Positions 33,272-35,956 of a DNA stretch of 64,000 nt are shown in pieces (position 1 is the stretch's first letter; every line of letters starts with the position of its first letter). Location of the stretch: assembly GCA_020161655.1 (NCBI GenBank), contig JAIUPC010000024.1, positions 62,001-126,000 on the forward strand, read 5' to 3'. Both the position numbers and the translations under genes were made by a program. Source of the DNA: Pseudomonadota bacterium. Lineage in GTDB: Bacteria; Pseudomonadota; Alphaproteobacteria; Rhodobacterales; Rhodobacteraceae. The notes beneath the pieces were generated by a model, which was not told where the DNA came from, did no database searches, and saw only the letters and a list, made by a program, of their open reading frames with translations.

Positions 33272-33343
33272 CGGAACCTCCTCACGCGAGGGACGGAAAG
33301 GCTAGTGCCGCATCCGCCATCTGTCCATCAGCGCAAATGAAAA

Positions 33344-33413
33344 GGCGGCGGTCCCAGGGAGGAGGAGGGGACCGCCGCCGCAACGCTTCGGCCCCAGGGA
33401 GGAGGAGGGGGCC
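33344..33413 (-). ncRNA. CcsR-like small RNA, unit 4 (two CCUCCUCCC hairpins, terminal)
   Basis: Two hairpins: GGCCCC / GGGGCC (33390-33413) and the 12-bp perfect stem GGCGGCGGTCCC / GGGACCGCCGCC (33344-33379). Both loops are the identical 12 bases, CTCCTCCTCCCT on the transcribed minus strand. The last hairpin is followed by TTTTCATTT, so it doubles as the terminator of the whole locus. Confidence 0.85.
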
Positions 33414-33425
33414 TCGCGCGTTCTG

Positions 33426-33516
33426 GTGAAGATGCGGTGGCAGCTCAGGGAGGAGGAGGAGCTGCCACCGCTCTTCACTACGTTCCGCGCCCAAGGGAGG
33501 AGGAGGGGGCGGACCG
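33426..33516 (-). ncRNA. CcsR-like small RNA, unit 3 (two CCUCCUCCC hairpins)
   Basis: Hairpin one (33481-33516) has stem TCCGC-CCC / GGG-GCGGA with a bulged G. Hairpin two (33426-33478) is the longest of the array: 13 perfect pairs around the loop plus 7 more beyond one bulged T. Both loops contain CTCCTCCTCCCT on the minus strand. Confidence 0.85.
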
Positions 33517-33576
33517 TATGCCTTTGGGCCGTATCAGGCCCGAATTTCGTCCGGCGTCCCGCCGGGAGGGGAAGAC

Positions 33577-33654
33577 GCGGCGACCCCAGGGAGGAGGAGG
33601 GGGCCGCCGCTCTTCTTCACGGGACCTCCAGGGAGGAGGAGGGAGGGACCCGTG
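33577..33654 (-). ncRNA. CcsR-like small RNA, unit 2 (two CCUCCUCCC hairpins)
   Basis: Hairpin one (33618-33654) has an outer CACGGG / CCCGTG stem and an inner CCTCC / GGAGG stem. Hairpin two (33577-33610) has GCGGCG / CGCCGC and CCCC / GGGG around one mismatch. Both leave the same 12-base loop. A further weak hairpin with a degenerate loop (33554-33578, GCGTC / GACGC) overlaps the downstream edge. Confidence 0.85.
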
Positions 33655-33684
33655 TCACGTTGGGCCTTTTGGGCCCGGTCAGTT

Positions 33685-33750
33685 GCGGCAACATCCGGGA
33701 GGAAGTGTTGCCGCTTGCCCCGGGGCCTAAGGGAGGAGGAGTGGCCCCGG
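33685..33750 (-). ncRNA. CcsR-like small RNA, unit 1 (one canonical, one degenerate loop)
   Basis: Hairpin one (33720-33750) has stem CCGGGGCC / GGCCCCGG and the canonical loop. Hairpin two (33685-33714) has a perfect 9-bp stem GCGGCAACA / TGTTGCCGC, but its loop reads CTTCCTCCCGGA on the minus strand, the only one of eight that departs from the shared 12-mer. It begins eight bases after the DUF1127 stop codon. Confidence 0.83.
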
Positions 33751-33758
33751 AGAATTCC

Positions 33759-33974
33759 TTATTTGCCGTATGCGGCTTCGGTCGCGATCGAGGTGATCGA
33801 CGAACGGGCGATGCCCAGGTCAGCCAGATCACGGTCGTTCAGCGCGTTCAGTTCCGCGACGGTCTGCCGGTACACGCTGTAGCGGCGGCGGGTTTCGCCA
33901 AGACGGGCGACAAGGCCGTTCAGCGAGGCGAAGATGCCCCATTCGCCAGTGCGGGTTGCGTTTGCATAAGCCAT
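33759..33974 (-). CDS. ccaF1: DUF1127 small RNA-binding protein (CcaF1-like)
   Basis: A 71-residue basic protein. The C-terminal half YRQTVAELNALNDRDLADLGIARSSI is the DUF1127 (YjiS) signature, here abbreviated to ELNALNDRDLADLGI. In R. sphaeroides the homologous gene RSP_6037 encodes CcaF1, an RNA-binding protein that affects maturation and turnover of the CcsR1-4 RNAs transcribed from the same message. The same order is seen here: the protein gene first, the hairpin units directly after. The symbol is assigned on synteny and family, not on alignment. Confidence 0.88.
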   Translation of the reverse strand: MAYANATRTGEWGIFASLNGLVARLGETRRRYSVYRQTVAELNALNDRDLADLGIARSSITSIATEAAYGK

Positions 33975-34026: not shown

Positions 34027-34057
34027 CTAACATGGGCCGAATGCTGCGGCTGCACAA
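34027..34057 (-). promoter_or_regulatory. Possible RpoH-type promoter of the DUF1127-CcsR locus
   Basis: On the minus strand TTGTGC, a 15-base spacer and CCCATGTTAG lie 52 or more bases before the DUF1127 start. The CCCAT-type -10 is reminiscent of heat-shock sigma promoters, which drive this locus in R. sphaeroides. The -35 word is a weak match. Confidence 0.3.
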
Positions 34058-34220
34058 TAGCGCACCTAATCAATGCTGCCATGCAGCATGTGCATGGCCA
34101 GGGGTTGCAAATTCGCGTTCCGTTACGGCAGGTTGCACAAAACTGTTACAGTAGCCGTTGCGGCTGATACAAAACTGACGCGGCGTGCTCAGATCATGAG
34201 CGGAACGGAAAGGCGAAGCG

Positions 34221-35294: not shown

Positions 35295-35319
35295 ACCGCC
35301 GCCCGAAGGGGCGATACTC

Positions 35320-35364
35320 CGGGAAATCACGGGAACGGCTTCCCTGCTACGGGAAGCCACGGGA
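35320..35364 (+). promoter_or_regulatory. 10-bp-spaced CGGGA boxes, array A (candidate MraZ sites)
   Basis: CGGGA occurs at 35320, 35330, 35350 and 35360, all in the same 10-bp phase with five-base spacers, with the 35340 place taken by the complementary TTCCC. E. coli MraZ binds TGGGN repeats with five-base spacers, so the spacing matches although the first base is C. Confidence 0.5.
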
Positions 35365-35484
35365 CTAATTCCCCGCAATCAGGGATTCTCGAATCACGGG
35401 CCGGTGAATCGCCGTGACTGCGGCCAGATTCCGGCCGGATGTCAGGTGTTTTCAGTCTGGCTTGGCGTCGATTGCGAAGGTTAT

Positions 35485-35509
35485 CGGGAAATTACGGGAA
35501 CTGATGGGC
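35485..35509 (+). promoter_or_regulatory. 10-bp-spaced (C/T)GGG boxes, array B (candidate MraZ operator)
   Basis: CGGGA aatta CGGGA actga TGGGC: three boxes with exact five-base spacers, the geometry of the E. coli MraZ operator, followed 15 bases later by TATATG. Proposed site of MraZ autoregulation of the dcw cluster. Confidence 0.55.
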
Positions 35510-35956
35510 GCCGTCTGGGTCTCTATATGTGGTGTTTTTGTGAACTACCAGACGCTAGGTATGCTGATGTTGGTAGAGATTCCTCGCAACATCCTGTTCT
35601 TGGTGGGGCGCCGTGCCAGAATCCGGGCTTTTCGAAGCAAGATTCTTGTTGCTTCCCGTAAAGTCCCATGACAATGCTGTAACCACAGATGAGGACGGGC
35701 ACAGACGGGCACCAAGACCCAAAAGGCAAAGTCAGGTTTCATACAGGCACCCGCTTTCATCGAACCAGAGAGATCCGACGCGCGAGCGAGCAGACATCCC
35801 CCCAGGTGGCATGCGCAGTCGGACGAACCCAGAGATGGGACAGGGCGGCGGATCGAGCGGTGGCAGCAGCTCGGTCCGCCGTTGTCCTTTCAAGGGTCTG
35901 GTGGCCGAAACGGCAGTGAATTCCGGGGGATGGGACAGTGACGGGAGCGCGGGCCA

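Follow-up and report, generated by a model that had tools for sequence, protein, structure and literature searches.

The window, the whole 64,000-nucleotide stretch of Rhodobacteraceae DNA analysed here, very probably carries a CcsR1-4/ccaF1-type locus, in which one transcript from a stress promoter would yield four anti-Shine-Dalgarno small RNAs. The array is an ordinary CcsR/cuckoo member in kind that falls short of the Rfam cut-off, and this kind of RNA is already known. It extends a known family, and the additions beyond the first reading are an asymmetry between the two hairpins of each unit and a VtlR-type promoter. We favor, with moderate confidence, a model in which the DUF1127/anti-Shine-Dalgarno operons of Rhodobacteraceae form a conserved regulon directly controlled by an LsrB/VtlR-type protein, with each unit combining a weaker hairpin on the 5′ side and a stronger, conserved one on the 3′ side. 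The gene and the array comprise the following features.

33759–33974, minus strand: DUF1127 gene, 71 amino acids, CcaF1-like (PF06568, E 3.4e-11, 43.1 bits, cut-off 23.3)
33344–33752, minus strand: anti-Shine-Dalgarno hairpin array, eight hairpins in four two-hairpin units (folding, and RF02791 in four registers)
33680–33757, minus strand: unit 1, CcsR1-type, hairpins 33752-33718 and 33714-33685 (RF02791 1-83, 33.2 bits, E 4e-06)
33572–33658, minus strand: unit 2, CcsR1-type, hairpins 33654-33618 and 33615-33571 (RF02791 1-83, 43.0 bits, E 5.2e-09)
33429–33521, minus strand: unit 3, CcsR1-type, hairpins about 33521-33477 and 33478-33426 (RF02791 1-83, 31.5 bits, E 1.3e-05); hairpin 6 covaries among 12 sequences
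33340–33423, minus strand: unit 4, CcsR1-type, hairpins 33422-33382 and 33379-33344 (RF02791 1-83, 43.5 bits, E 3.5e-09)
33335–33343, minus strand: T-rich tail TTTTCATTT after the last hairpin, likely an intrinsic terminator (sequence, and the pattern in relatives)

The original prediction had placed eight minus-strand hairpins, seven of them with an identical 12-mer loop, behind a DUF1127 gene, and each of these elements was recovered. The PF06568 match exceeds its cut-off, hairpin 1 follows the stop codon of the gene after six bases on the same strand, and all eight hairpins are present from 33752 to 33344. The predicted span had extended to 33974, an end coordinate that also takes in the DUF1127 gene. 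The exact 12-mer CTCCTCCTCCCT (minus strand) occupies seven of the eight loops, and hairpin 2 (33714-33685) deviates with the shorter variant TTCCTCCC. In the source genome (4,079,253 bases, 24 contigs), CTCCTCCTCCCT has seven exact copies, all within 386 bases of the array. One-mismatch places number 23 more, giving a total of 30, compared with 34 for the reversed-pattern control at up to one mismatch; thus, the clustering of exact copies is exceptional and the total count is not. CCTCC-loop hairpins are common in this G+C-rich window, where, of 141 outside the array, 78 satisfy loose limits and 20 attain -15 kcal/mol. Hairpins alone therefore prove little, and the case for the array is carried by the identical, clustered loops together with the covarying arms. 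The array stems span 7–19 bp in the hairpin scan, hairpin 3 forms 6 + 5 bp in the unconstrained fold, and a ninth fold from the scan (33589-33551) overlaps hairpin 4 and was left uncounted. The loop-to-loop distances (36, 61, 42, 94, 47, 51, and 40) alternate between short and long. The grouping into four pairs, originally drawn from the gaps, is upheld by four in-register RF02791 matches; the gaps themselves differ with the re-drawn stems, and spacing marks the boundary between units 3 and 4 weakly (51, versus 47 within unit 3).

At the Rfam gathering score, a search of the whole window returned tRNA only. With the threshold relaxed, all four units align to RF02791 (CcsR1, "Conserved CCUCCUCCC motif stress-induced RNA 1" in Rfam) along the entire model (1-83), with scores of 31.5–43.5 bits (E 3.5e-9 to 1.3e-5) that all stay below the gathering score of 65.3. 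A fifth, weak match in the window is to the plus strand (22.8 bits, E 0.0049), and in the source genome at E ≤ 0.01 the four units are the only matches. Weak matches appear in two of 14 control genomes, none over the cut-off and only one of the 14 at E ≤ 0.001. Across Rhodobacteraceae, 324 of 394 genomes have a match at E ≤ 0.001 and 17 of 394 pass the cut-off, which is accordingly narrow. The six best-scoring loci, fetched from the 17 genomes over the cut-off, are pair-spaced arrays with 7–14 loop motifs; all six have the same promoter block, and their upstream frame is DUF1127-like by eye. Among the 394 family genomes, 296 contain the pair pattern CCTCCTCCC-N22-50-CCTCCTCCC. Its reversed form matches in a minority of genomes, with two matches in the source genome versus four for the true pattern. 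The units exhibit the makeup of CcsR1, namely two hairpins per unit, CCUCCUCCC-type loops, and variable stems, while matches to RF02344 (alpha-r14/NfeR1) reach 42.1, 33.5, and 23.8 bits against a cut-off of 58.8. Conserved or identical loops on variable helices are described as a trait of the cuckoo family (PMC3927594, PMC4504443); this combination is a known family hallmark and no peculiarity of the window locus. The covariance search with a cuckoo RNA model, which had been proposed as a check, therefore agrees with the predicted assignment: the RF02791 matches, although below the gathering score, and the DUF1127 gene in front identify a cuckoo locus of the CcsR1-4/ccaF1 type.

The locus resembles its R. 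sphaeroides counterpart (RSP_6037; RF02791, CIN1) in the co-oriented DUF1127 gene in front, the four two-hairpin units, the conserved CCUCCUCCC loops, the terminator at the end, and a nearby mraZ/dcw cluster, and its promoter may likewise be sigma-32-like. It differs in its lower scores (31.5–43.5 bits, below 65.3), in the longer CUCCUCCUCCCU of seven loops, and in the shorter loop of hairpin 2. In R. sphaeroides, ccaF1 and CcsR1-4 are reported to be co-transcribed in the same order from an RpoHI/RpoHII promoter to a Rho-independent terminator, and the CcsR1-4 transcript to be processed by RNase E and CcaF1 (PMC10253847); turnover by PNPase has also been reported. The R. sphaeroides loci RSs0680 and RSs0682 are presumably neighbors, judging from their numbering. 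In the window, mrp-like and mraZ genes adjoin the locus. The long leader from the mrp-like gene to mraZ (35295-35956), a counterpart of the R. sphaeroides UpsM region, has no Rfam match at E ≤ 0.1; the UpsM small RNA is described as originating in the mraZ leader (PMC7866481).

DUF1127 matches were found in 34 of 61 genomes, including the source genome. The 38 DUF1127 loci scanned include the window locus as L039 and a single record entered as both L031 and L040; 34 of the 38 carry an array and four carry none (L036, L037, L038, and L067). Fifteen hairpins with a single loop, ACCTCCTCCC, and differing stems follow the DUF1127 gene at L060 (G027). The array of L082 (G209) has 26 loop motifs and consists partly of tandem copies of a three-hairpin block with weak, medium, and strong stems.

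Pairing between the hairpin arms was assessed without folding, using spacing-defined pairs from outside the same-genus set plus those of the window. The arms of 5′ hairpins (n = 84) pair with their own partner at 7.89 of 9 positions, versus 6.65 with swapped partners and 6.79 in the highest of 20 shuffles; for 3′ hairpins (n = 83), the corresponding values are 8.83, 7.77, and 7.91. Hairpin 6 was additionally aligned across 12 sequences, the window copy included. These are 12 of 17 candidates, five at position 4 having been left out, and the 17 were chosen by a common 5′ flank and a strong fold, which biases them towards good pairing. In this alignment, 97.1% of the cells are paired, and sliding the partner lowers pairing to 28–56%. 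Five of the 12 pairs changed on both sides, a count reached by 13 of 500 shuffles, and the covariation score was reached by none of the 500. The number of further pair types (9, versus a shuffle mean of 9.4; reached by 404 of 500 shuffles) shows no excess. The pairing of the array-hairpin arms is under selection, and the expectation that covarying stems would stay paired in related genomes was borne out. These results bear on whether the feature acts as DNA, with a G-quadruplex in the plus-strand GGGAGGAGGAGG and the hairpins incidental. Seven of the eight loops, all but that of hairpin 2, do read on the plus strand as four G-tracts separated by single bases; however, the flanking arms, which a quadruplex would not require, covary, and in relatives the hairpins are arranged by spacing and by strength. 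We regard this DNA-level reading as extremely improbable.

The two hairpins of a unit are of different types. For this comparison, pairs were set by spacing alone (at most 46 within and at least 52 outside). Outside the set labeled same genus (29 loci, nearly all from other genera, with two source records named Paracoccus), 78 of 80 pairs have the 3′ hairpin as their stronger member. The same holds for 24 of 26 pairs from 16 genus-set loci, window included, and for all four units of the window, two of which conform to the spacing rule. In the regular part of L082, hairpin strengths increase from 5′ to 3′. The motif CGGYGR lies in the 26 bases before the loop in 65 of 82 3′ hairpins versus 2 of 82 5′ hairpins (80 outside pairs and two from the window). 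The RF02791 consensus of Rfam has a conserved GCGGCG in its second hairpin, so that the two-type finding is partly implicit in Rfam. Each stem had been described as different and independent, yet well paired. The good pairing stands, with own-partner pairing and covariation behind it; full independence does not. Hairpins 4 and 6 have GAAGAGCGG...CCGC(A/G)TCTTC in common, so not all window stems are independent, and the CGGYGR motif of the 3′ hairpins and the strength rule likewise leave the stems only partly so.

The last hairpin was predicted to double as a terminator, and the hairpin followed by TTTTCATTT after the last unit fits an intrinsic terminator by sequence. In relatives, the last hairpins of arrays are T-tailed, with a mean best count of 5.82 T in 7 (n = 22), compared with 2.44 T in 7 for internal 3′ hairpins (n = 59). 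The internal 3′ hairpins lack T-runs and are therefore not terminator-like. An origin of these hairpins as terminators retired after tandem duplication was considered and rejected, as their downstream T count (2.44 in 7) is no different from that of 5′ hairpins (2.33). The same counts weigh against the view that the array amounts to successive transcription terminators or to an artefact of simple tandem repetition. Although the 3′ hairpins look like intrinsic terminators, the internal ones of relatives have no T-run (2.44 T in 7, versus 5.82 after the last hairpin). The L082 array did grow by repeated copying of a block of three hairpins, but in the window most stems differ and the loops are identical, the opposite of what recent tandem copying leaves. 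That view is highly unlikely, if marginally less so than the quadruplex.

Upstream of the DUF1127 gene, TTGTGC...CCCATGTT has what we take to be a resemblance to sigma-32/RpoH sites, and it recurs in relatives. The promoter region contains the following elements.

34071–34085, minus strand: distal box TGCATGGCAGCATTG, VtlR/LsrB-type by resemblance (one mismatch to the published Brucella motif)
34042–34057, minus strand: proximal box TTGTGCAGCCGCAGCA, overlapping the -35-like TTGTGC and starting 28 nt after the start of the distal box
34029–34036, minus strand: -10-like CCCATGTT (sequence and relatives; an RpoHI/RpoHII promoter is published for the R. sphaeroides operon)

The VtlR-binding motif reported for Brucella is CAATGCAGCCATGCA (PMC12595884), whose reverse complement is identical to the distal box except at one base. 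The VtlR-box core printed for Brucella and Agrobacterium is GCAT-N3-TG-N3-T (PMC7486931); the window has GCAT-GGC-AG-CAT-T, which departs from the exact core in that A replaces the T of TG. A composite site, defined as both boxes 26–29 nt apart with at most 7 of 29 mismatches, was sought in arrays with at least 450 nt upstream. L082, with too short an upstream region, and arrays without two folded hairpins or an exact CCTCCTCCC were left out, and L095 was entered twice with one promoter. On this basis, the composite site is present at 55 of 62 arrays (20 of 20 in the genus set, 35 of 42 in the others), while single-base shuffles of the same upstream sequences, 20 for each, all had at least 9 mismatches. 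The misses are L064 (with three arrays), L066, L079, L083, and L092; at L064 (G028), several DUF1127 matches lie close together, and all three of its arrays fail the test.

Within the source genome, two places match the proximal box perfectly and five others do so with one mismatch, versus one for the reversed control, and both perfect copies precede a DUF1127 gene with cuckoo hairpins. The distal 15-mer occurs once exactly, at no place with one mismatch, and at ten with two; at up to three mismatches it has 117 places versus 26 for the reversed pattern. The second DUF1127 gene of this genome (C23:226350-226529) is accompanied, by eye, by one two-hairpin cuckoo unit and a terminator (G000:C23:226233-226580). 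Its proximal box is perfect, and 5 of the 15 bases in its distal box deviate (by eye), which counts against a strict two-box rule.

A candidate for the protein that would bind the distal box was sought through the lsrB–trxB operon of Rhizobiales, the order to which LsrB is said to be unique (PMC11975290). Among 115 genomes across the class, 111 have trxB; in the 30 best-scoring loci fetched, a LysR-type frame lies downstream of trxB in 18, and these frames are taken to be lsrB from their linkage. The source genome encodes 37 LysR proteins at E ≤ 1e-8. One of them, L169 (G000:C6:582610-583512), is the best match for all 18 trxB-linked frames in a one-way comparison (25–50% identity), leading the next LysR protein of the genome at 36% identity or more in 17 of 18, with 25% versus 24% for L160. 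The DNA-binding part of L169 is 61–85% identical to that of 16 of the 18 frames (two were unaligned) and the remainder 28–41%; its DNA-binding part is 31–50% identical to the 7 of 36 paralogs shown. The genome thus appears to encode an LsrB/VtlR-type LysR protein, closest to those linked to trxB. Unlike lsrB in Rhizobiales, the L169 gene is not beside trxB, where no LysR frame is directly adjacent (neighbors named by eye). The LysR gene nearest to trxB (~2 kb, C24:380200) is not the best match of the trxB-linked frames, and autoregulation through the box was set aside, as the 2.2-kb L169 locus has no site with up to 4 mismatches to the 15-mer.

An L169 homologue at E ≤ 1e-80 is present in 383 of 394 family genomes, a near-universal distribution that makes its presence alone uninformative. 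With a limit of E 1e-126 for weaker homologues, picked after the table had been seen and counted by hand, the motif pair is absent from 20 of the 21 genomes whose homologue is weaker (the exception is G320), and 20 of the 21 lack an RF02791 match (the exception is G202). The motif pair is missing in 6 of 11 genomes without a homologue and in 72 of 362 others. This co-occurrence of regulator and array is consistent with a functional link, with phylogeny as a confounder. Nothing in the literature searched, as far as its text was available and with most subscription papers outside the search, links LsrB or VtlR to a DUF1127/CcsR operon. On the strength of the promoter sequence, the DUF1127/CcsR promoter may be controlled by a LysR-type protein. 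The parallel with the VtlR/LsrB regulon of Brucella and Agrobacterium (AbcR small RNAs, VrsA, and DUF1127 genes) lies in the box CAATGCAGCCATGCA and the LysR type of the regulator.

In the proposed mechanism, a stress sigma factor, probably joined by a LysR activator, would drive one transcript comprising the DUF1127 gene and the array and ending at the last hairpin. By analogy with R. sphaeroides, RNase E, helped by the DUF1127 protein, would release four small RNAs of about 80 nt with two hairpins each. Their loops (CUCCUCCUCCCU in seven of eight) would pair with purine-rich ribosome-binding sites (AGGGAGGA) and keep ribosomes off, and the eight copies would provide dose and redundancy. The stronger 3′ hairpin with its conserved lower stem would probably guard the 3′ end against PNPase. 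GGGAGGA is found 4–10 nt before ATG at 92 places versus 14 for the reversed pattern; this excess reflects ordinary Shine-Dalgarno use and therefore shows that such sites are in use, not that they are targeted. The array might instead act as a sponge or decoy that titrates either another G-rich RNA or some protein, for example CcaF1. Eight near-identical loops per transcript, and loop motifs that number from 2 to 26 per array across the loci scanned, would be expected if dose alone matters, and CcaF1 is reported to bind RNA and to affect CcsR levels (PMC10253847). However, the loops have anti-Shine-Dalgarno sense, the R. sphaeroides CcsR1-4 RNAs are reported to target flhR mRNA (PMC8307010), and the related NfeR1 acts through its loops, which silence ntrB by pairing (PMC10746234). 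We consider a sponge unlikely, though the least implausible of the alternatives to small RNAs that block translation. The alpha-r14/NfeR1 RNAs (RF02344; Sinorhizobium and relatives) share identical CCUCCUCCC loops on variable stems with the window units, and NfeR1 is reported to be activated by the LysR regulator LsrB (PMC10746234). They differ from the window units in having three hairpins in one RNA and a promoter of their own, and they are reported to be Hfq-independent.

If the LysR reading of the promoter is true, a likely regulator would be named for a widespread stress operon, and the literatures on CcsR/CcaF1 in Rhodobacter and on VtlR/LsrB, AbcR, NfeR1, and DUF1127 in rhizobia and Brucella would be joined. 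One ancestral circuit, from a LysR protein to DUF1127 and anti-Shine-Dalgarno small RNAs, would then underlie Rhodobacterales and Rhizobiales. This would be at odds with the published statement that LsrB is unique to Rhizobiales and with the description, in the text available, of the R. sphaeroides operon as driven by RpoHI/RpoHII only. The rule of a weak 5′ and a strong, conserved 3′ hairpin would offer a handle on small-RNA maturation and protection.

Just before trxB in the source genome (G000:C24:379200-383300; L133, L175) lie LysR, TauD-like dioxygenase, and HD-domain genes, named by eye. This arrangement may resemble the phosphonate-degrading pairs of the TmpAB type.
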